Source: Myxococcota bacterium
GTDB lineage: Bacteria > Myxococcota_A > UBA9160 > SZUA-336
Assembly (NCBI GenBank): GCA_035498015.1
Contig: DATKAO010000092.1
Span: 1 to 52,174, forward strand
Direction of reading: 5' to 3'
Length of the DNA stretch: 52,174 bases
The translations under genes and the position numbers were made by a program. Each line of letters opens with the position of its first letter. Position 1 is the first letter of the stretch. Positions 1,757 through 16,754 of the stretch are shown piece after piece. The notes under the pieces were generated by a model that worked only from the letters and a program-made list of their open reading frames with translations, searched no databases and was not told the origin of the DNA.

Positions 1757-3480
1757 CCCCAGAGCCGGACGATCTTCTCGCAGCGCTCGATGCGGCCGGC
1801 GTCGCCGTCGATCACGCGCCGCGCCTGGCTCTCGAGCTCGAGCATCTTCACGAAGATCCAGCGCGCGGCGAGCTCCGTGCGCTCGGGGGCGTGCTCGGCC
1901 TGACGGAGCAGCTCCGAGGACACGATCACCGAGATCACCATCTCGGCGACCGCGCGCGCCGAGAGCAGCGCGTAGCCGAAGTCACTCAGCAGCGCGTGCG
2001 CCGACTGCTCGATGCGCTCGATGCCGGCCACGACCCGCTCCGCGAACGACTTCAGCACGGGCTGGGTGAGCGCGCCGAGCTCCTTGCGCAGCTCCTCGAA
2101 CACGATCGCGAGCGCCCCCTTGCCGATCTCCTTCAGCGCGAAGCTGACCTGGATCTCGCTCGTGCCCTCGTAGATCGTGGTGATGATGCCGTCGAGGTGG
2201 AGCTTGCCCGCGACGCTCTCCGCCATGAAGCCGACGCCGCCGTGCACCTGGATCGCGGCGCGCGTGATCTCGTCGCAGCTCTCGGTCGCGAGGAACTTCG
2301 CGAGCGGCGTGAACAGGCGGATCTGCACCTGGTTGCGCTCGATCACGCGCTCGAGCTCGCCCCGCTCGGACGCCGAGATCGTCTTGTCGCGCTGCAGGCT
2401 CGAGCGGAGGGCGTTGGAGTGGTCGATCAGCGCCGACACGCGGTAGAGCAGCGAGCGGCTGCCCTCGAGTGACACGATCATGCGCGAGAGCAGATTCTTC
2501 ATCAGCGGCTGGTCGCCGATCGGCATGCCGAACTGTTTGCGCTCGTGCGAATAGCGCACGGCCTCCTCGACCGCGGCTTCGGCGATGCCGATGCCCTGCG
2601 CCGCTACGCCCAGGCGCGCGTTGTTCATCAGGTCGAGCATGGCCTTGAAGCCGTCGCCCCGGGTGCCGATGCGCCAGGCCTCGGCGCGCTCGAAGCGCAT
2701 GACCGCGGTCGGAGACCCGTGCAGTCCGAGCTTGTGCTCGAGTCTCTCGACGCTGACCCGGTTCTTCGTGCCGTCGGGCAGCGTGCGCGGGCAGATGAAG
2801 AGCGAGAGACCCTTGGTCGTGCCCTTGGACTGCTCGAAGGTCTCGGCGTCGCGTGCCAGCACGAGATGGATCTCGGCGCCGCCGTTGGTGATGAAGATCT
2901 TCTGGCCGTCGAGGAACGAGCGGCCGTTCTCCTCGTACGCGCGAGTCACGATGCCGCCCAGGTCGGAGCCGGCCTGCGGCTCGGTCAGGTCCATCGCGCC
3001 TTGCACCTCGCCGGACACGAAGCGCGGCAGGTAGCGCTCGGCGAGCTCGTCGGGCGCGTAGCGCTGGATGTCCTCGGCGACGCCCGCCTGCAGGCCCATC
3101 ACCGTCATGAGCGCGGCGTCGGCGCGCGCCACCATCTGGATGAGGACGTTCGCGATCAAGGTCGGCAGCTCGAAGCCGCCGAAGCGCTCTCTCACGCCCA
3201 CGCTCACCAGCCCCGCCTCGCGCAAGAGCTCGTAGCCGTGGCGCACGTGCTCGGGGTGCACGACCTCGCCGTTTGAGAGCTTCGCGGGCTCCCACCAGCC
3301 GGCGCGCGCCTCGGGCTCGATCTTGGTGCAGATCTCGGCGGCGGTCTCGAGCAGGCTGCGCAGCGCGCCGCGCTCGGCTCCGAGGTCGGCGCCGTCCCCT
3401 TTGCGGCGCGCGTAGTAGTCGTCCCAGTCGACGAGCTTGTCGAGATAGAGCAGGACGGCGTCGTGGAGATAGGCGGCCAT
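1753..3480 (-). CDS. Acyl-CoA dehydrogenase (about 575-residue, long type)
   Basis: This FAD-dependent dehydrogenase of fatty acyl-CoA thioesters has the family signatures in order: LTEPQAGSDLGG (substrate and flavin binding), IFITNGGAEI, NNARLGVAAQG, RKQFGMPIGDQPLMK, VHGGVGFM, and IYEGTSEIQ with the glutamate expected to be the catalytic base. At 575 residues it is longer than the usual 380-400 and carries the extra C-terminal helical region of the FadE/DmdC-like group. The open frame runs further upstream, but the ATG at 3480 has a GAGGG six bases ahead of it, while the alternative ATG at 3510 has none and would place the hairpin repeat (3489-3517) inside the gene. Substrate chain length is not predictable. 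No electron-transfer partner is adjacent. Confidence 0.9.
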   Translation of the reverse strand: MAAYLHDAVLLYLDKLVDWDDYYARRKGDGADLGAERGALRSLLETAAEICTKIEPEARAGWWEPAKLSNGEVVHPEHVRHGYELLREAGLVSVGVRERFGGFELPTLIANVLIQMVARADAALMTVMGLQAGVAEDIQRYAPDELAERYLPRFVSGEVQGAMDLTEPQAGSDLGGIVTRAYEENGRSFLDGQKIFITNGGAEIHLVLARDAETFEQSKGTTKGLSLFICPRTLPDGTKNRVSVERLEHKLGLHGSPTAVMRFERAEAWRIGTRGDGFKAMLDLMNNARLGVAAQGIGIAEAAVEEAVRYSHERKQFGMPIGDQPLMKNLLSRMIVSLEGSRSLLYRVSALIDHSNALRSSLQRDKTISASERGELERVIERNQVQIRLFTPLAKFLATESCDEITRAAIQVHGGVGFMAESVAGKLHLDGIITTIYEGTSEIQVSFALKEIGKGALAIVFEELRKELGALTQPVLKSFAERVVAGIERIEQSAHALLSDFGYALLSARAVAEMVISVIVSSELLRQAEHAPERTELAARWIFVKMLELESQARRVIDGDAGRIERCEKIVRLWG

Positions 3481-3488
3481 GTGACCCT

Positions 3489-3517
3489 CGGAGCATGGGT
3501 AGGTGCCCATGCGATCA
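3489..3517. repeat. REP-like hairpin repeat, copy A
   Basis: A 29-base unit beginning CGGAGCATGGG and ending CCCATGCGATCA recurs at 20162-20191 with a single inserted G. The arms GCATGGG and CCCATGC form a perfect 7-bp stem with a 6-base loop. This copy lies between the divergent starts of the acyl-CoA dehydrogenase and purO, so here it sits in a promoter region. Confidence 0.75.
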
Positions 3518-3564
3518 AGACGTTTCTGGCTATGATCGCCGGGCTCCCCGCCGGAGGTTAGCGC

Positions 3565-4206
3565 ATGTACGTCGGACGGATCGTCGCCGTGGGTCGCACT
3601 CGCGCGGGCATGAACGCGGCTCTGTACCGCGTATCGTCGCGCTCGTTCCCGAATCGGATGGCCGTCGAGGTCGAGGGCCGGCTCGCGGTCGTGCCGCGGC
3701 CCGGGCACGAGGGCGACCTGCACAAGAACCCGTACATCGCCTACAACTGCGTGCGCGTCGCGCGCGAGCTCGCCGTCGCGACCAACGGCAGTCAGACCGA
3801 TCCGATCGCCGAGAAGCTCGCGCTCGGCGTGCCCGCGCGCGACGCGCTCGCCTCGGTGCTGCTCGCGCTCGACTTCGAGAAGGATGCCCTGCAGACCCCG
3901 CGCATCGCGGGCATCGTGCCGCGCGACGGCGACGTGGGCTGGCTCGCGATCGTGCGCCACGACGCGCTCGTGGTGAAGGCCGTGCCGCTCGAGCCCGGCC
4001 GCGCGTGGTACGTGGCCACCTACGAGCACGACGACGTGCGCGAGGCGCAGCGCGTGGACTTCGACGCCCCCGACGCCGAGGCGTGCGCGCGCTTCGCGGT
4101 CGACGGCGGGCGCTTCGCGGAGCTCGAGAAGCCGGTGACCGCCGCGGCGGCGCTGGCGTCGAGCCGGGGCTTCCGGCTCGGCACCTTTCTCGTCAATCCG
4201 TCGTAG
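3565..4206 (+). CDS. purO: IMP cyclohydrolase, PurO type
   Basis: PurO closes the ring of FAICAR to give IMP, the last step of purine synthesis; most bacteria use the C-terminal half of PurH instead. The 213-residue protein matches the archaeal-type IMP cyclohydrolase family throughout: it starts MYVGR, then has YRVSSRSFPNR (about 21-31), KNPYIAYNC (about 54-62), NGSQTDPI, a GVPARDAL segment, LALDFEKDALQTPRIAGI (about 98-115), and a C-terminal TFLVNP. A GGAGG lies nine bases before the ATG. It is divergent from the acyl-CoA dehydrogenase and 23 bases before ampG. No other purine gene is present. The family assignment is firm; activity in this organism is inferred. Confidence 0.88.
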   Translation: MYVGRIVAVGRTRAGMNAALYRVSSRSFPNRMAVEVEGRLAVVPRPGHEGDLHKNPYIAYNCVRVARELAVATNGSQTDPIAEKLALGVPARDALASVLLALDFEKDALQTPRIAGIVPRDGDVGWLAIVRHDALVVKAVPLEPGRAWYVATYEHDDVREAQRVDFDAPDAEACARFAVDGGRFAELEKPVTAAAALASSRGFRLGTFLVNPS

Positions 4207-4229
4207 GAACGCGCCGATGAGGATGCCAG

Positions 4230-5519
4230 ATGCGTCCTCGTGAGGTGCTCGCCGCCTATCGCAACCCGCGACAGCTGACGGTGCTGGCCATGGGCTTCGC
4301 CAGCGGTCTGCCGCTGGCGCTCACGGGCGCGAGCTTGCAGGTGTGGCTCACGCGGGCGGGTGTGTCACTAAAGGACGTCGGCCTGTTCGCGCTGGTCGGC
4401 TTCGCGTACAGCCTGAAGTTCCTGTGGTCGCCGCTGCTCGACGCGCTGGCCGTGCCATGGCTCGGCGCGCGCCTGGGGCAGCGGCGCGCCTGGCTGGTGC
4501 TCCTGGGTCTGGGGCTCATGGGCGCGATCGCGGCGCTGGGTCACACCGATCCCGCGCTCGAGCCGTGGCGCACGGCCGGGCTGGCCGCGCTCGTGGCATT
4601 CCTGTCCGCGAGTCAGGACATCGTTATCGACGCCTACCGCATCGAGCTGCTCACGAAGGAGGAGCAGTCCGCGGGCGCGGCGGCGACTCAGTGGGGCTAC
4701 CGCCTCGGCATGATCGCCTCGGGCGCGTTCGCGCTCTCGCTGGCGCAGCACTACGGCTGGCCGCTGAGCTATCTCGCGATGGCGGCGCTCGCGGGCGTGG
4801 GCGTCGTGACCGCGCTCGTCTCGCCGGAGCCGGAGCACCTGCGCGGGCGGAGTGACTCGTTCCTGGCCAGCGCGGTGATCGAGCCGTTCCGCGAGTTTCT
4901 CTCGCGGCCCGGTGCCTGGCTCTTGCTCGTGTTCATGCTGGTGTACCGCATGGGCGACGCGCTCTCGGGCGGCATGGCCAGCCCGTTCTACGTGCGCCTG
5001 GGCTTCTCGAACGACGAGATCGCGAGCGTGGCCAAGGTGTTCGGCGTGATCGCCTCGATGGCGGGCATCGCGGCGGGCGGCGCGTTCGCGTTCCGGCTGG
5101 GGGTTTCGCGCGCGCTCGTGGCTGCGGGCGTGGTCCACGCGCTCGGCAACCTGGCGTTCATCGTGCAGGCCTATGCGGGTCACGACCTGCGCGCGCTCAC
5201 GCTCACGATCTTCGTCGAGAACTTCACCGGCGGGCTCGTGTCTGCCGCGTTCGTCGGCTATCTCTCGACGCTCTGTCACCCGTCGTTCACTGCGACTCAG
5301 TTCGCGCTGTTCACCTCGCTCACGGCGGTTCCGCGCAACTTCCTGGCCTCGGGTGCGGGCTGGCTGGCGGAGCAGCTCGGCTGGCCGGCGTTCTTCGCGG
5401 CGGCCTTCGTGGCGGCGCTGCCGGGCATCGCGCTGGCGGTGTGGCTCGACGGGGGAATGGGCGGTCAGTCCTTCCGGCGCCAGAGCTCGAACGCGCCGAA
5501 GCTCTCCTCGAACTCGTAG
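4230..5519 (+). CDS. ampG: AmpG-like muropeptide permease (MFS)
   Basis: This 429-residue multi-pass membrane protein of the major facilitator superfamily has the hallmarks of AmpG, which imports GlcNAc-anhydroMurNAc-peptides for cell-wall recycling. Near the N-terminus it has GFASGLPLAL and later YSLKFLWSPLLD, with SASQDIVIDAYR (about 128-139) as the most specific motif. The C-terminus is shorter than in E. coli AmpG (491 residues). It fits with murQ and ddl elsewhere in the window. The last 55 bases overlap the 3' end of the convergent membrane glycosyltransferase, so the final residues (MGGQSF onward) are antisense to that gene and may not be functionally important. It could form an operon with purO. 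Confidence 0.88.
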   Translation: MRPREVLAAYRNPRQLTVLAMGFASGLPLALTGASLQVWLTRAGVSLKDVGLFALVGFAYSLKFLWSPLLDALAVPWLGARLGQRRAWLVLLGLGLMGAIAALGHTDPALEPWRTAGLAALVAFLSASQDIVIDAYRIELLTKEEQSAGAAATQWGYRLGMIASGAFALSLAQHYGWPLSYLAMAALAGVGVVTALVSPEPEHLRGRSDSFLASAVIEPFREFLSRPGAWLLLVFMLVYRMGDALSGGMASPFYVRLGFSNDEIASVAKVFGVIASMAGIAAGGAFAFRLGVSRALVAAGVVHALGNLAFIVQAYAGHDLRALTLTIFVENFTGGLVSAAFVGYLSTLCHPSFTATQFALFTSLTAVPRNFLASGAGWLAEQLGWPAFFAAAFVAALPGIALAVWLDGGMGGQSFRRQSSNAPKLSSNS

Positions 5520-7246
5520 GTGGCGTCGAGGTAGCTCATCACCTCGGGAATTGCCTTGCGATAGCCGATGGCGTCGACCGGATCGGCGTAGCGGTACACC
5601 GCCGCGTAGTGCGGGCGTGTGCGCTCCAGATCGGCCACCAGCTGCTGGCGCTGCTCGCGAGTCACTGCGAGGATGGCCATCGGGAAGCGCGTGGGCTGCG
5701 GGCGGTCGGCCAGGAAGTAGAGCAGCGCCTCGTTCGGGAAGGCCAGAAAGGGCTCGTCGGGGCGCACCCGCGCCTGCAGGACGTGCGTGATGGTCTCGAG
5801 GTGCAGGGCGATCTCCGCCGGCATGCTCGCGCCGCCGCCGCGCGCCACGTCGAGCACGCGATAGCCCGTGGGAGTGGCCGGCCACAGTGACTGCGCGTTG
5901 GCCAGCGCGACGCTCGTCCAGGGCGCGAGCGCCAGCGTGCCCGCGAGCGCGCCCGCGGCGCAGGCGACTCGCCACGCGGGCGTGGTCAGCCCGAGCGCCG
6001 CCTCTTCCAAGAGCCCCGCGAGCAGGATCAGCACGGGCGGCGCGGCGAAGGCGAGATGCGTGTCGTCGGGCCGCGACAGCGCGCCGCTGAACAAGAGCGC
6101 CCCGAACACGGCGAGCGCAAGCTCGCTGCGCGTGCGCGGATCGCGCGCTCCCCGCAGGAGCTTCGTGCCCGCGACGAAGCCGGCCACCACGAGCAGCGCC
6201 GGCGCGAACCACGCGCGCAGTGACTCCGCGGTGGGCTCGAGCGCGGGGAACGGCAGGGCGCCGAAGCCGAGCAGGCGCGTGCGCGGGAACACGAACAGGT
6301 TGTCGAGGGTCGCGGACAGCGCTCCGACCGCGCCGAGATAGACGCCGATCGGGAGCAGCACCGCAGCCGCGCCCACGGTCAGGCGCGCCCACACGCGCCA
6401 CGGCTCACGAGCGGCGAGCAGGGCCGCGCCGGCGCCCGCCGCGCACGCGACGCCGACTTCCTGACTGAATCCGAGCGTGATGGCGAGCAGCGCGCCCGAG
6501 ACCCCGGGCCGCCCGCGCGTGAGGGCCGCCAGCGCCGCCAGGCCGAGGCCGACGCGCGCCAGACACCAGCTCATGGCCGGGAGCGCGGGCGCACACAAGA
6601 GCCCCACGACCAGCGTCGCAGCGAGCGCACCGGCGCGCGTGCGCAGGAGCTCGCGCACGAGCCAGTAAGTCGCCACGAGCGCCAGGGCGTCGAGCGCGAA
6701 GACCCAGATCCGCCACAAGCCCAGCGAGGGACCGGCCACGCGGAACAGCCACGACGTCGGCCAGGTGGCGAGCGGCCCGTAGAGACAGAAGGTGTCGCGC
6801 GACAGGACTTCTCCGCGCAGCACCGTGTTCACCCAGGCCAGCGCCTCGCCTTCCTCGGAGAACAGCATGAACGGATTGGCCCAGGACGAGCGCGCGGTCC
6901 ACGGCCGCGCGAACAGCAGCGCGAACAGTGCAGTCACCGCGAGCAGCTCGAGCCAGGTCAGCTTCGGCCCGCGCGGCAGCGCGACCCAGGGCTCGCGTGG
7001 CCGCGCCCAGACCGCCCAGATGCCCAGGCCCACCGCGAGCGCCACGGCCATGCCCACGGCGTAGGCCAGTGACTCTGCGGACTTCGAGTGACCCGCGAGG
7101 ATCGACACCGACACGATGCCGAGCTCGCGCGCGCGCGCGACGTCGCCGCCCGTCGCGGGCAGCAGCCAGATCGCCGCGCGCGCCGCCAGCGTGCCCGCGG
7201 CGAGCGCACCCGCGCCGATCCAGAAGCCCGCGTCCGCGCGCTTCAC
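5465..7246 (-). CDS. Polytopic membrane protein, GT-C glycosyltransferase-like
   Basis: This 593-residue protein has many hydrophobic helices. An acidic SEEGEAL motif follows the second or third helix, and LYGPLATW comes shortly after, an arrangement like the first periplasmic loop of GT-C glycosyltransferases. A soluble C-terminal portion (about 490-593) ends in ELWRRKD. The longer open frame to 8206 is not used: the GTG at 7246 overlaps the stop of the upstream GT9 gene (GTGA, 7243-7246) and is followed by an amphipathic start and a first transmembrane segment. It is the last gene of a four-gene minus-strand surface-glycan block. The family is only suggested by topology; sugar and acceptor are unknown. 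Confidence 0.75.
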   Translation of the reverse strand: MKRADAGFWIGAGALAAGTLAARAAIWLLPATGGDVARARELGIVSVSILAGHSKSAESLAYAVGMAVALAVGLGIWAVWARPREPWVALPRGPKLTWLELLAVTALFALLFARPWTARSSWANPFMLFSEEGEALAWVNTVLRGEVLSRDTFCLYGPLATWPTSWLFRVAGPSLGLWRIWVFALDALALVATYWLVRELLRTRAGALAATLVVGLLCAPALPAMSWCLARVGLGLAALAALTRGRPGVSGALLAITLGFSQEVGVACAAGAGAALLAAREPWRVWARLTVGAAAVLLPIGVYLGAVGALSATLDNLFVFPRTRLLGFGALPFPALEPTAESLRAWFAPALLVVAGFVAGTKLLRGARDPRTRSELALAVFGALLFSGALSRPDDTHLAFAAPPVLILLAGLLEEAALGLTTPAWRVACAAGALAGTLALAPWTSVALANAQSLWPATPTGYRVLDVARGGGASMPAEIALHLETITHVLQARVRPDEPFLAFPNEALLYFLADRPQPTRFPMAILAVTREQRQQLVADLERTRPHYAAVYRYADPVDAIGYRKAIPEVMSYLDATYEFEESFGAFELWRRKD

Positions 7247-11721: not shown

Positions 11722-11867
11722 CGCCCGAGAGTCACATCGGGGGTGTCGAGGCTGCAACCGGGCGCCTGCGTGTCGCCGCCTCGCTGCACCGCCGTAGGCC
11801 GCGCGTCCGTGTCACGCCGCCGCGCCGGGCATACCCCTTGCTCAAAGCCCCCGAGGAGGACTCGACC

Positions 11868-12116
11868 ATGCCCCACGACCGCTACGACTATCCCATGGAG
11901 CGCAGCGAGCGCGTGCCGAGCCCCGGGCTCGCGGCCGTGCTCTCCGTCCTGGTTCCCGGCCTCGGACACATCTACGCGGGCCGCCTCGGCGCCGGGCTGG
12001 GCTGGTTCCTCGCGACCATGTTCGGCTACTGGGCGATCCTGGTGCCCGGCTTCCCGATCCACGTCGCGAGCGTGTACTTCGCCTACCAGGCCGCGAAGCA
12101 CTTCGAAGGCTACTGA
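11868..12116 (+). CDS. Small membrane protein, TM2/DUF5683-like
   Basis: This 82-residue protein has an N-terminal polar stretch (MPHDRYDYPM), then two hydrophobic hairpin helices. AVLSVLVPGLGHIYAGRLG (about 23-41) is the recognisable signature of small TM2-like membrane proteins, followed by GWFLATMFGYWAIL and a short tail ending HFEGY. The ATG at 11868 is preferred over 11838 because GAGGAGG lies about nine bases before it. It is divergent from mutM across a 146-bp gap that contains no other gene I can support. Function of the family is unknown. Confidence 0.75.
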   Translation: MPHDRYDYPMERSERVPSPGLAAVLSVLVPGLGHIYAGRLGAGLGWFLATMFGYWAILVPGFPIHVASVYFAYQAAKHFEGY

Positions 12117-12133: not shown

Positions 12134-12463
12134 CTAGTCGCGCGCTTCGAGCGTGAACTGCAGCTCGAGCCGGCCCAGGTGGAAGCGATCGCCGTCCTTC
12201 AGCTCGAGCGCGGCGGGCAGCTCGCCTTCCACGTCGGCGTGGCGCAGCACGAAGCCGCCGCTCTTGAACTCGACGAGCGCGTGCCGGGTGCGCAGTGACT
12301 CATCGTTCAGGGCGAGGTCGACTCCGGGGCCGCGGCCGAGCGCGGTGCGGGGCTGGTCGAGGCGGTACTCGAGGCCTCGGGCTTCGCCGGTGAGGATCAC
12401 CAGCGCGGGGCGATAGCGGGTCAGGAAGTCCGACAGGTTCCAGGAGACGGAGGAAGGTTTCAT
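12134..12463 (-). CDS. FHA-domain protein
   Basis: This 109-residue protein is almost entirely a forkhead-associated domain, a phosphothreonine-binding fold. After about 20 residues come LVILTGEARGLEYRL, then TALGRGPGVDLALNDESLRTRHALVEF, which holds the GR, the S and the R-H of the FHA peptide-binding loops (about 43-68), then GFVLRHADVEG and LKDGDRFHLGRLELQF. A GAGG lies just before the ATG at 12463. It sits 80 bases after the carotenoid oxygenase on the same strand. No Ser/Thr kinase is in the window, so its partner is unknown. The domain assignment is firm; the role is open. Confidence 0.88.
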   Translation of the reverse strand: MKPSSVSWNLSDFLTRYRPALVILTGEARGLEYRLDQPRTALGRGPGVDLALNDESLRTRHALVEFKSGGFVLRHADVEGELPAALELKDGDRFHLGRLELQFTLEARD

Positions 12464-12543
12464 CGATCCTCGGCTTGGACGGGGGGAGGACGGTAATGCT
12501 TCTCCCAACGGTCCGCCGCCGCGCGGCTTGAGTCCGTGGTGAA

Positions 12544-13926
12544 TCAGACCCGATCCTCGGGGACCCAGAGGCCGTGGAAGCCGTACGGCACGCGCTGCGG
12601 CAGGAGCACACGCGCGATCGGCGGCGCGGTCAGGTCGCGGGCGTCGGCGACCAGGAGCTCGCTCCGGCCCTCCGACTCGTCGTGGACGAACGCCAGGAGC
12701 CAGCCGTCGTCCTCGTCCGAGCCGCCCGGCCGCGGCACGAACACGCCTTCGCCGCCGTTGCGGTTCGGGCCGAAGCGGTGGAGCTGCGACGCGCAGCCGC
12801 GGTCGAGGTCGTACTTCAAGAGACCCTCGGCGAGCGGAAGACGAACGTCGCTGCGCATGCGCGAGGCGAACACGTAGCGCGCTCGCCGGCCGACCCGCGC
12901 CGGGTTCACGCTGGGCAGCTCGGCGTTCTGGTCGTCGAGCTCTTGCTCGCGCACCGAGCCGCGCTGCAGGTCGATGCGCCAGCGCCACAGGCGCGTCGGG
13001 TGCGGCGGCGCGTTGCCCGGCTCGACCTCGGCCGCGAGGTCGAACGCCGCGCGCTGGATCACGTCGAGCACCACCTCGGAGCCCTCCTCCCAGGCGTTCG
13101 CCACGTGGTACGCGAAGCAGGGAGCGATCGGGAACCAGCGCAGGTCGCCGCCGGAGCCGCGCCGCGGCATGAGTCCCAGGTGTGACCCGCGCTCGGGCTC
13201 GAAGCGCGCGATCGGCTCGCCGCGCAGAAAGCGCCGCACGTCGAACGTGTACGGGTGATTCATGAACACGGCCCAGCGCTCGGTGATCGCGAAGTCGTGC
13301 ATCCAGACGCCGATCGGCAGCTCGATCGCGGTGGTGTGCGCGAGCGTGCCGTCGGCCGCGATCACCGAGTACTGCGCGTGCGGCTTGGCGACCGGGCTGT
13401 AGCCGAAGGCGAACAGCTCGCCGGTCCGCGGGTCGAGCTTGGGATGCGGAGTGAGTGGATGGCGCAGCCGGCGCCCGAAGCTGTACACGCCGAGTGTCTC
13501 GAGCTCGGGCAGCGCGATCTCGTACGGCTCGCCCTGGTCGTGCAGCGCCAGCAGCCGGCCCGCGTGGCGGACCAGGGCCTGGTTCGCGGTGTTCTTGGTC
13601 GCGCCCTCGGGGTTGTCGAACTGCGGGCGCTCGAGCACGCCGGTCCAGAGCGCGCGCCCGCGCCGCCGCTCGAGCTCGTACGCGCGCGTGCGCACCGCGC
13701 GGTTGCGGTAGCTCGCGCGCCCGTTCTCGAGCCGCACCGCGTGCAGCATGCCGTCGCCGTCGAGCCAGTGATACGCGCCGAGCGGCGGGAACTGCGGATT
13801 GGGTCCGTTGCGCACGAACGTGCCGGCGAGCTCGCGCGGTAACTCACCGCGCACCGGCAGGTCGTCGGCCGCGAGCTCGTGCTCGACGGGTGCGAAGTTC
13901 CCCTCGAGGAACGGGCTCTTCGGCAT
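12544..13926 (-). CDS. Carotenoid cleavage oxygenase family
   Basis: This 460-residue non-haem iron dioxygenase of the carotenoid oxygenase (RPE65/CCD) family cleaves a C=C bond in carotenoids, apocarotenoids or stilbenes. The N-terminal ELAGTFVRNGPNP and HWLDGDGMLHAVRL (about 33-70) are diagnostic. Four histidines in family positions can ligate Fe(II): TPHPKLDP, WMHDFAITE, FAYHVANAWEEG and the C-terminal YGFHGLWVPE. The start at 13926 is the first ATG consistent with family length. The gene lies ten bases after the C45-like gene, probably in one unit with larE. Cytoplasmic; no signal peptide is seen. Substrate is unknown, and no carotenoid biosynthesis gene other than this is visible. Confidence 0.92.
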   Translation of the reverse strand: MPKSPFLEGNFAPVEHELAADDLPVRGELPRELAGTFVRNGPNPQFPPLGAYHWLDGDGMLHAVRLENGRASYRNRAVRTRAYELERRRGRALWTGVLERPQFDNPEGATKNTANQALVRHAGRLLALHDQGEPYEIALPELETLGVYSFGRRLRHPLTPHPKLDPRTGELFAFGYSPVAKPHAQYSVIAADGTLAHTTAIELPIGVWMHDFAITERWAVFMNHPYTFDVRRFLRGEPIARFEPERGSHLGLMPRRGSGGDLRWFPIAPCFAYHVANAWEEGSEVVLDVIQRAAFDLAAEVEPGNAPPHPTRLWRWRIDLQRGSVREQELDDQNAELPSVNPARVGRRARYVFASRMRSDVRLPLAEGLLKYDLDRGCASQLHRFGPNRNGGEGVFVPRPGGSDEDDGWLLAFVHDESEGRSELLVADARDLTAPPIARVLLPQRVPYGFHGLWVPEDRV

Positions 13927-13936
13927 CGGCGCGATT

Positions 13937-14728
13937 CTAGCGCGCGGCCGCGTCGAGCCGAGTGGCCGGGGCGCCGCCGTCGACGCCGAGCCAGGTGAGT
14001 CGGCCCGCGCCGGGGTCGAGCTCGACCTGCGGCCGCAGCGCGCGTGCGGCGCCGGGCACGGGACGCAGCTCGAGTCTCCCGCCGCGGAACGCCAAGCTGC
14101 GCGCGCGCCCGGCTGCGTCGGCCACCACGAGCTCGCCGGTGCCGCCCGCGTAGGCCGCACGCCGGCGCAGGTGGTCGATCCCGGCCTCGAGGTCGCGCGC
14201 GCGGAACAGGAGCTCCTGCGCGAGGAAGCGCAGCGAGAGCTCGTCGCGCGAGAGATCGCGCGTGCACACCGCGGCCAGGCCCTCGGAGTTCACGCCGCAC
14301 AGGCAGCCGGCGAGCGGCGCGAGCACGAGCTCGGCGCTGGCGAAGCCGCCGGCGTCGGGGCGGCTGCGGCGCAGAGCTACGAGTGACTCGAGCCCGGCCG
14401 GGAGCTCGAACGCCGCGCCGAGCGGCGCGCTCGCCGCCACGAACGCGGCCCCTTGCACGCGGGTCAGCGCCTCGCCCAGGAGCAGCAGCCACTCGGGCGT
14501 GCCGCTGGCCAGCGCCATGCCCTCGATCCGCTCGCGCTGCCAGGGCAGCTGCGTCTCGAGCGCGCGCGCGCTGGTCCCGCGCACCCGCCGCACCAGCGCG
14601 CGGCGCGCGAGCCAGGGCAGAGACCCGCGCAGGCGCAGCGCAGCGGCGCGGATCTCGCTCGCCAGCGACTCGCCTTGCGCGCGGCCCTGCTCGACCGGCG
14701 CACCCGGAGTCTCGAAGAGCGGCGTCAT
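13937..14728 (-). CDS. C45-like acyltransferase/hydrolase (Ntn-fold candidate)
   Basis: The 263-residue product resembles the C45 acyl-coenzyme A:6-aminopenicillanic acid acyltransferase family. PGAPVEQGRAQGESLASEI (about 8-26) matches the family's N-terminal G-x-P-E-x-G-x-x-G pattern, and a helical segment ends in WLLLLGEAL. GCLCGVNSEGLAAV (about 142-155) is where the autoprocessing Cys nucleophile would lie; the second Cys of GCLCG is the likely residue by position. C-terminal strands (GTGELVVADAAGR) fit the Ntn sandwich. The start ATG at 14728 overlaps the stop of larE (ATGA), suggesting coupling. It is shorter than typical family members (about 330-360). Reaction unknown; catalytic competence is inferred. 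Confidence 0.65.
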   Translation of the reverse strand: MTPLFETPGAPVEQGRAQGESLASEIRAAALRLRGSLPWLARRALVRRVRGTSARALETQLPWQRERIEGMALASGTPEWLLLLGEALTRVQGAAFVAASAPLGAAFELPAGLESLVALRRSRPDAGGFASAELVLAPLAGCLCGVNSEGLAAVCTRDLSRDELSLRFLAQELLFRARDLEAGIDHLRRRAAYAGGTGELVVADAAGRARSLAFRGGRLELRPVPGAARALRPQVELDPGAGRLTWLGVDGGAPATRLDAAAR

Positions 14729-15582
14729 CGCGCGGGCGGCGCGATCTGCAAAATCTCGTTCGCGGAGCCCATGCGGTAGCCGTCGACGTCGAGCGCGACC
14801 CAGCGGAAGCCCGCGTCGTGCAGCGCGCGCGAGATCGCGCGCAGCGCGTCGGGCGCGAGCGCGCGCGGCATCTCCTCGCGCGCCAGCTCCACGCGCCCCA
14901 GGTCGCCGTGGTGGCGCACGCGCAGCTGGCGGTAGCCGAGCGCGCGCAGCGCGTCTTCCGCGCGGTCGATCTGCGCCAGCTTCTCGGGAGTCACCTCCAT
15001 GCCGTAGGGCACGCGCGACGAGAGACAGGCCGAGGCGGGCAGCTCCGCGGTCTCGAGCCCGGCCGCCGCCGAGAGCGCGCGAATCTCGGCCTTGCCCAGG
15101 CCCGCTTCCAGGAGCGGCGAGAGCACCCGGTGCTCCTCGGCCGCGCGGTGACCGGGGCGGAAGTCGCCGGTGTCGTCGCGGTTGATGCCGTAGGCCACGG
15201 CCGCGAAGCCGCGCTCGACCCGCAGGCCTTCCAGGAGGTCGAACAGCTCGGTCTTGCAGAAGTAGCAGCGGTCGGGCGCGTTGCGCGCGTACTCCGCGCG
15301 CTCGTGCTCGTGTGAGTCGATCCACTCGTGGCGCAGCCCGACCTGGCGCGCGACGCGCTCCGCGGTCTCGCGGTGACTGCGCGGGTACGACGGAGACACC
15401 GCGGTGACCGCCAGCGCGCGCGGCCCGAGCGCCTGGTGCGCGGCCCAGGCGAGGTACGCGGAGTCGACGCCGCCCGAGTACGCGACCACGAGCGACTCGC
15501 AGCGAGACAGTCGCGCCAGGAGCGCCGCTTGCCTGGCGCTGGCGTCGTCGCTGGCGCGCGTTTCCGCTGGCTCGTTCGACAC
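14725..15582 (-). CDS. larE: LarE-type ATP-dependent sacrificial sulfur transferase
   Basis: LarE adenylates pyridinium-bis-carboxylate mononucleotide and inserts sulfur to build the nickel-pincer cofactor of lactate racemase. The 285-residue protein has SGGVDSAYLAW (PP-loop, about 36-46), PDRCYFCKTELF (about 105-116), YGINRDDTGDFRPG, and ASACLSSRVPYG, which contains the Cys of the family's catalytic region. A GTG start is used. It heads a minus-strand run with the C45-like protein and carotenoid oxygenase. larA, larB and larC are absent here, so the cofactor may serve another LarA homologue elsewhere, or this may be a LarE relative with another sulfuration target. It is divergent from ddl across 71 bp. 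Confidence 0.85.
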   Translation of the reverse strand: MSNEPAETRASDDASARQAALLARLSRCESLVVAYSGGVDSAYLAWAAHQALGPRALAVTAVSPSYPRSHRETAERVARQVGLRHEWIDSHEHERAEYARNAPDRCYFCKTELFDLLEGLRVERGFAAVAYGINRDDTGDFRPGHRAAEEHRVLSPLLEAGLGKAEIRALSAAAGLETAELPASACLSSRVPYGMEVTPEKLAQIDRAEDALRALGYRQLRVRHHGDLGRVELAREEMPRALAPDALRAISRALHDAGFRWVALDVDGYRMGSANEILQIAPPAR

Positions 15583-15610: not shown

Positions 15611-15653
15611 CGTGTCAATGACAGTGGCCCCGCGGCGGCTATCCTCGCGGGCC

Positions 15654-16754
15654 ATGGCGAAACGGCGCATCGGGATCGTCTTCGGGGGCCGCTCGACCGA
15701 GCACGAGGTCTCCGTGGCGTCGGCCAGCGCGATCCACGATGCGCTCGACCCCGCGCGCTACGCGCCGGTCCTGATCGGCGTGGCGCACGACGGCAGCTGG
15801 CACGTGGCCGAGGCGGGCTCGGGACTCATGCCCGGCGAGGTGATCGGCCACGCGAAGAGCCGCACGGCCTTCGCGGGTCTGCGCTCCGGCCTCGAGCTCC
15901 TGCGCCGCAGCGACGCGGCACCGGCGCTCGCCGAGAAGCTCGACGCGGTGTTCCCGATCATCCACGGCCGCGGCGGCGAGGACGGCTCACTGCAGGGCAT
16001 GCTCGAGCTGGCCGAGATCCCGTACGTGGGCTGCGGCGTGCTCGCCACCGCGCTGTGCATGGACAAGGCGCTCGCGAAGTCGGTGTTGCGCGACGCCGGC
16101 GTCCCGGTCGTGCCCGCGAACGAGATCTCGCGCCACGAGGCGCTGCTCTCGACCGCCGACTTCGAGGAGGCCGTCGAGGCGCGCTTCGCCTACCCGTTGT
16201 TCGTGAAGCCCACGAACACCGGCTCGTCGGTCGGCGTGCAGAAGGTGCGCACGCGCGCCCACCTGCACCACGCGATCAAGGAGGCCGCGAGATACGACCA
16301 CGACGTGCTGGTCGAGCCCGGCGTCGAGGCGCGCGAGATCGAGTGCGCGGTGCTGGGCGGTCACTCGCCGCAGGCCTCGCAGCTGGGCGAGGTGCGCTAC
16401 AGCGCGGAGTTCTACGACTACGAGGCCAAGTACGCCAGTGACTCCACGCAGATCCTGATCCCGGCCGACGTCACGCCCGAGCAGGACCAGACCATGCGCC
16501 GCTACGCGCTCGAGGCCTTTCGCGCGCTGAAGTGCTGGGGCATGGCGCGCGTGGATTTCTTCCTCGAGAAGAAGACCGGGCGCATCCTGCTGAACGAGCT
16601 GAACACGCTGCCCGGCTTCACCGACGCCAGCATGTACCCGAAGCTCTGGGAGGCCAGCGGCATCTCGCTGCCCGAGCTGGCCGACCGGCTGATCGAGCTG
16701 GCGTTCGAGCGGCGCAAGGAGACGGCCTCGCTCGAGATCCGCTACGCGAAGTGA
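15654..16754 (+). CDS. ddl: D-alanine--D-alanine ligase
   Basis: This 366-residue ATP-grasp ligase makes the D-Ala-D-Ala dipeptide for peptidoglycan. Motifs in order: RRIGIVFGGRSTEHEVSV (about 4-21), FPIIHGRGGEDGSLQGMLEL (about 101-120), PYVGCGVLATALCMDKALAK, PLFVKPTNTGSSVGVQKV (ATP-binding lysine and glycine loop), DYEAKYAS (omega loop), WGMARVDFFLE, and LLNELNTLPGFTDASMYPKLW with the metal-binding Glu and Asn. All catalytic signatures are present and the length is typical. The ATG at 15654 is preferred over 15612 because the protein then begins at the usual family position. It is an isolated gene, not in a division and cell-wall cluster. Confidence 0.95.
   Translation: MAKRRIGIVFGGRSTEHEVSVASASAIHDALDPARYAPVLIGVAHDGSWHVAEAGSGLMPGEVIGHAKSRTAFAGLRSGLELLRRSDAAPALAEKLDAVFPIIHGRGGEDGSLQGMLELAEIPYVGCGVLATALCMDKALAKSVLRDAGVPVVPANEISRHEALLSTADFEEAVEARFAYPLFVKPTNTGSSVGVQKVRTRAHLHHAIKEAARYDHDVLVEPGVEAREIECAVLGGHSPQASQLGEVRYSAEFYDYEAKYASDSTQILIPADVTPEQDQTMRRYALEAFRALKCWGMARVDFFLEKKTGRILLNELNTLPGFTDASMYPKLWEASGISLPELADRLIELAFERRKETASLEIRYAK

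Follow-up and report, generated by a model that had tools for sequence, protein, structure and literature searches.

A C45-fold protein without its catalytic nucleophile is encoded beside larE across a class of Myxococcota and may be an accessory of the sulfur insertase

In one genome survey, about 15% of genomes encoded LarB, LarE and LarC but no LarA; that report describes the protein that uses the nickel-pincer nucleotide (NPN) in these organisms as unknown and postulates a non-LarA NPN protein for organisms with LarBCE only (PMC11796402). For the sulfur insertase itself, the closest described system is the [4Fe-4S] LarE of the Thermotoga maritima type, and Ser and Arg residues equivalent to S180, R212 and R214 of L. 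plantarum are proposed to hold the substrate phosphate (PMC9283937). A third point of comparison is the C45 family of autoproteolytic acyltransferases/hydrolases (NF040521), represented by Penicillium isopenicillin N acyltransferase (structures 2x1c and 2x1d), N-acylethanolamine acid amidase (NAAA) and acid ceramidase. Here we consider a locus on a 52,174-nucleotide stretch of DNA (contig DATKAO010000092.1, the window) from a Myxococcota bacterium (assembly GCA_035498015.1), where larE adjoins a gene for a C45-like protein. As in the LarBCE systems without LarA of cyanobacteria and others (PMC11796402), LarC and LarE are kept and LarA is absent in most genomes of the class; unlike in those systems, larE is split from larB-larC and has a conserved candidate neighbor. 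No paper joining LarE with a C45 protein was found in the open-access literature, as judged from titles and the beginnings of abstracts.

In the window, the larE stop codon and the start of the C45-like gene share a 4-base ATGA overlap. The two genes probably form a small, translationally coupled unit that is old within the class, and the overlap and the conserved pairing suggest that they are co-transcribed. We tentatively propose that the C45-like protein, which has a C45 fold but would be catalytically dead, serves as an accessory to a LarE of the [4Fe-4S] type within a split NPN pathway. LarE would turn pyridinium-3,5-biscarboxylic acid mononucleotide (P2CMN) into pyridinium-3,5-bisthiocarboxylic acid mononucleotide (P2TMN), with larB-larC located elsewhere. 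The C45-like protein, which would descend from an autoproteolytic acyltransferase/hydrolase fold that has since lost its nucleophile, would most likely bind LarE, or the nucleotide intermediates of LarE, without catalyzing a reaction, and would hold them, hand them over or regulate the process.

The pairing is seen throughout the class, for which 90 genomes were sampled (the phylum sample comprised 235). A profile made from 26 C45-like proteins (A1, match threshold 100 bits) gave matches of at least 100 bits in 81/90 class genomes, and LarE was above its cut-off in 81/90. The two genes are adjacent in 76 of the 81 LarE-bearing genomes (75 on the same strand, plus G077, recognized by reading its contig end). 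Contig ends cut the pair in G067 and G084, and both genes are present but apart in G015, G032 and G045. A one-genome-per-species scan with one family peptide pattern returned 81 stretches, 23 of which encode relatives (the named loci). All 23 come from metagenome-assembled genomes, 21 titled Myxococcota, Myxococcales or Deltaproteobacteria and two titled "Geobacter sp." and "Proteobacteria". LarE adjoins the C45-like protein in 22/23 of these loci, and the spacing between the matches never exceeds 146 bases in the 22 loci with both. The 4-base overlap of C45-like start and larE stop recurs in 12 of the 22, a count for which start choice favored the start closest to the larE stop. In one locus (L051), 3.6 kb (2504-6150) separate larE from ddl, the D-alanine-D-alanine ligase gene on its other side, and the larE/C45-like overlap is intact. 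In the window and in genomes G001 and G009 (L077 and L076), other genes lie downstream, with no helicase match, and larE and the C45-like gene are still together. Outside the class, the profile exceeded 60 bits in the phylum sample only in G127 (146 bits) and G117 (82 bits), and both matches (L080 and L081) are ordinary C45 proteins that retain the Cys.

The C45-like protein of the window scores 40.5 bits against NF040521 (C45_proenzyme), below the cut-off of 85, and has no Pfam match at E 0.1. Its AlphaFold2 model (predicted local distance difference test score 88.2; 91.0 for a relative from L042) aligns with isopenicillin N acyltransferase 2x1c with a Z score of 26.7 and a root-mean-square deviation of 2.5 over 255 residues, and a Foldseek E value of 6.8e-12 supports a C45/N-terminal nucleophile (Ntn) fold over the whole chain. 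The L042 model aligns with 2x1d (Z 27.6), and the next-best solved structures are NAAA and acid ceramidase. Profile comparisons gave the same assignment, as A1 matches 2x1c at E 5e-7 and all 24 members of a second alignment (A3) reach E 0.01 or better against NF040521.

Although the fold is shared with C45 enzymes over its whole length, these proteins have mostly lost the nucleophile Cys, along with the Asn-x-Asp motif and another Asn farther on. By structural alignment, Gly93 (window protein) and Ala98 (L042 relative) sit at the nucleophile position, which corresponds to residue 1 of penicillin V acylase, residue 126 of human NAAA and residue 143 of acid ceramidase. None of 44 C45-like proteins has Cys in this column (19/44 are gapped), whereas eight of nine ordinary C45 proteins have Cys and the ninth has Ser; seven of these nine are encoded in class genomes and the other two in phylum genomes outside the class. 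The stretch is variable across the 44, and the nearby Cys found in some rows share no column. The catalytic Asn-x-Asp motif and the later Asn are mostly replaced, the Asp column being Asp in 8/44. In the tree, a branch with a Shimodaira-Hasegawa-like approximate likelihood ratio test value of 97 sets the C45-like family apart. On the basis of the models, we consider this a C45-fold protein that is unlikely to act as a C45 enzyme; since the nucleophile is lost, self-cleavage and amidohydrolase activity are both improbable. An active amidase or acyltransferase was therefore rejected, given Gly93 at the nucleophile position and the loss of most catalytic partners. The label "acyltransferase/hydrolase" used in the first-pass annotation of this DNA does not survive the structural and sequence alignments, and naming the family in this way would mislead.

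Other positions have become conserved. Arg120 is present in 43/44, Glu133 in 39/44 and Ser131 in 38/44 C45-like proteins, compared with 2, 1 and 1 of the nine ordinary C45 proteins, respectively. These three residues, which lie near the fold's own Asn147, are a candidate site at which LarE or a nucleotide ligand might be bound. Six close pairs gave ratios of nonsynonymous to synonymous substitution rates of 0.13-0.26 and the window's genus gave 0.47, values that indicate that the C45-like gene is maintained under purifying selection. The constraint is weaker than that on LarE in the five pairs compared.

LarE has the features of its family. The window protein scores 303.2 bits against the TIGR00268 cut-off of 150, and, as in LarE of the Thermotoga maritima type (PMC9283937), it has an SGGVDS PP-loop, CXXC-C cysteines and equivalents of the phosphate-binding Ser and Arg residues. 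Cys106, Cys109, Cys186 and the PP-loop Asp40 are conserved in 57/57 class rows (43 distinct sequences) and in 30/30 rows from outside the class. In alignment with structure 6b2o, the CXXC is joined by a third Cys that falls one residue from Cys176 of the aligned L. plantarum chain, and equivalents of L. plantarum S180, R212 and R214 are found. What differs from the Thermotoga maritima type (PMC9283937) is the setting, as larE lies away from larB-larC and adjoins ddl and the C45-like gene. We predict from these residues that the window LarE is a normal [4Fe-4S]-type sulfur insertase, with nothing pointing otherwise. A second LarE in the window genome was considered and rejected, because the whole assembly has a single match above the cut-off. 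In G045 (L063, L064), the LarE is only about 34% identical to that of the window and is located elsewhere, as if replaced, with ddl and the C45-like gene still adjacent to each other.

How complete is the pathway? The window assembly (G000; 4.52 Mb in 257 contigs, 95% complete) has no match to the LarA N-domain (PF09861). A larB-larC pair is present on another contig (C117), so the pathway is split in this genome. The first-pass description of the locus as being without LarA, LarB and LarC therefore holds locally only; in the genome as a whole no larA was found, but larB and larC are present on C117. As for larABC accompanied by a second larE, which that annotation named as counting against its proposal, larB-larC only and a single larE were found. 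LarC is present in 86/90 class genomes and the LarA N-domain in 20/90, three of which (G062, G064 and G083) have no LarE above the cut-off. Of the 81 LarE-bearing genomes, 78 have LarC and 64 lack a LarA match, with 61 falling in both groups; LarC and LarE without LarA are thus the rule in this class. In 21/21 larC loci viewed, larB adjoins larC (LarB was sought beside LarC only). A conserved enzyme that might use the cofactor was also considered beside larB-larC and rejected, as the other recurrent neighbors, judged from sequence, are chemotaxis-like genes and a groEL-like chaperonin gene. D-alanine-D-lactate specificity of ddl was also considered, as something that might connect this gene to lactate racemase. 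Because nearly all of its genomes encode, next to larE, a conserved C45-fold protein that seems to be catalytically dead, the class offers a concrete candidate for cofactor binding.

The LarC of the window genome is itself unusual. This only copy scores 136 bits for the LarC2 part, above the cut-off of 50, and 78.5 bits for the LarC1 part, below the cut-off of 90. It aligns over its full length, yet of the 97 columns in which eight relatives are invariant it deviates at 30; these include a whole FHEVG stretch, lost with the reading frame kept open. LarC of the congener G001 is normal. Because of these deviations and the low LarC1 score, nickel insertion in the window species is in doubt.

If the C45-like protein is an accessory of LarE, why is so much else conserved around it? 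It is quite possible that the protein has an NPN-independent role of its own, perhaps in ligand binding, and stays beside larE because gene order changes slowly. Several findings weigh against a functional tie to LarE. Gene order is conserved well past the pair in this class, at both the larE and the larB-larC loci: many loci share a block of ddl, larE, the C45-like gene, sometimes a LOG-like gene, a helicase gene, gatC, gatA and gatB, and in a second block larB-larC lies between chemotaxis-like (che-like) and chaperonin-like (groEL-like) genes. The functionally unrelated, divergent helicase/gatC pair is found within 300 bases in 15/15 loci, and the helicase is present downstream in 13/15 named loci having at least 3.5 kb of flank. 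Both ddl and larE are matched in 22/23 named loci, and they are within 300 bases of each other in 21/22, L051 being the exception. Three genomes (G015, G045 and G074) keep the C45-like gene next to ddl although LarE is no longer encoded there, and G032 keeps LarE beside ddl with the C45-like gene elsewhere. G074 (87% complete) has no LarE above the cut-off and no LarC match; its C45-like protein is the longest terminal branch in the tree (2.73; next 2.13, median 0.51), which might reflect loss of its partner or unusual composition. Among 60 hand-picked phylum genomes outside the class, 33 had LarE, and in the 30 loci viewed with about 1.5 kb of flank no C45-like gene and no ddl lies beside LarE, which has LarB beside it in four. 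The alignment around the nucleophile position is also loose.

Shared absence of LarE and the C45-like protein was considered as evidence of linkage and rejected as mostly uninformative. Of the eight genomes lacking both, three have no ddl match (G043, G064 and G069) and two have a distant one only (G059 and G083), which makes missing contigs the apparent reason for most of the shared absences. In G003 and G062, ddl is at a contig start; G016 alone shows ddl with 2.5 kb of upstream sequence that contains neither gene. In G059, the only matches are to other C45 proteins, at 46 and 66 bits. What argues against a mere passenger is the tightness of the pair. Insertions are frequent between the C45-like gene and the helicase (the gap exceeds 300 bases in 12/19 loci and reaches 5,033) and occur once between ddl and larE (L051), yet larE and the C45-like gene are within 146 bases in 22/22; start/stop overlaps are frequent, and breaks inside the pair are few, namely G032 and three genomes in which LarE has disappeared from the site (G015, G045 and G074). 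Since gene order is slow to change in this class, functional coupling can be called plausible only.

In LarA, a Lys holds NPN and a His ligates the nickel. A further reading, which we think unlikely, makes the C45-like protein the missing non-LarA partner that would bind or use NPN (or P2CMN or P2TMN), a nucleophile-less Ntn fold reused for cofactor binding. The lack of LarA and the retention of LarC in most LarE-bearing genomes, as counted above, would suit such a role and match the setting for which a non-LarA protein is postulated (PMC11796402), and the C45-like gene is, ddl aside, the only gene found beside larE class-wide. However, neither the A1 nor the A3 alignment has an invariant His, Lys or Cys, which lowers the likelihood that NPN is used as in LarA and leaves binding of a precursor unaffected. 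Cys is at least 90% conserved in two columns of A3, where the window protein instead has Thr7 and Leu173. LarA is also present in 17 of the 81 genomes, and the window genome's own LarC looks degenerate. That the protein is still a hydrolase, with an unorthodox nucleophile, seems improbable: the newly conserved Ser131 and Glu133, or the nearby Cys of some rows, could be taken in its favor, but Gly93 and Ala98 occupy the nucleophile position and the catalytic Asn and Asp are replaced as described. A non-catalytic accessory of LarE is the interpretation that we prefer.

The first-pass annotation had joined LarE, an acyltransferase/hydrolase and a carotenoid oxygenase in one pathway making or trimming a modified metabolite, an idea that we now regard as very improbable. 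The genes and spacings on which it drew are confirmed by the window sequence, as are the identities of LarE, the oxygenase and the forkhead-associated (FHA) protein by their profile scores (Table 1). The oxygenase follows the C45-like gene by 10 bases, the FHA gene follows the oxygenase by 80 bases, and the arrangement is common to the congener G001. The oxygenase looks intact, with four His that align with those of the solved carotenoid dioxygenase 9m6z and that we take to be the ligands found in carotenoid oxygenases. However, among six window-family genomes for which about 5 kb or more of downstream sequence was viewed, the oxygenase is beside the larE/C45-like pair only in the window genome and G001 (L077) and is absent in G004, G007, G009 and G010; it is beside the pair in 0/23 named loci, the downstream sequence being short in several of these. 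The nucleophile of the supposed hydrolase is lost as well. The neighborhood conservation that the annotation had looked to is thus found for larE and the C45-like gene and not, even in close relatives, for the oxygenase. The oxygenase was rejected as part of the unit, its adjacency being limited to the window genome and G001, and we judge the oxygenase and FHA genes to be unrelated local neighbors. In G009 (L076), the C45-like gene is followed by the FHA gene without the oxygenase.

Table 1. Genes at the larE locus of the window and the larB-larC pair of the same genome
Feature	Position	Strand	Basis and details
larE, sulfur insertase	14725..15582	minus	GTG at 15582, stop 14727-14725; TIGR00268 303.2 bits
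C45-like gene	13937..14728	minus	ATG at 14728, TAG ends 13937; NF040521 40.5 bits
Carotenoid oxygenase (RPE65 family)	12544..13926	minus	ATG at 13926; PF03055 477 bits
FHA-domain protein	12134..12463	minus	ATG at 12463; PF16697 40.3 bits, PF00498 26 bits
ddl, D-alanine-D-alanine ligase, divergent from larE	15612..16754	plus	PF07478 244 bits, PF01820 110 bits
Small protein, weak below-cut-off TM2 match	11838..12116	plus	profile match
LarC	G000 contig C117:3505-4551 (L034:3457-4590)	same direction as LarB	LarC2 part 136 bits, LarC1 part 78.5 bits
LarB	G000 contig C117, adjoining LarC	same direction as LarC	NF033503 278 bits

Two minor features of the surroundings recur. A LOG-like Rossmann gene follows the C45-like gene on the opposite strand in L040, L046, L050-L052, L059 and L066, and the L059 copy matches TIGR00730. 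The small TM2-like gene and the FHA gene of the window lie tail to tail, and this pair is kept in G001 and G009.

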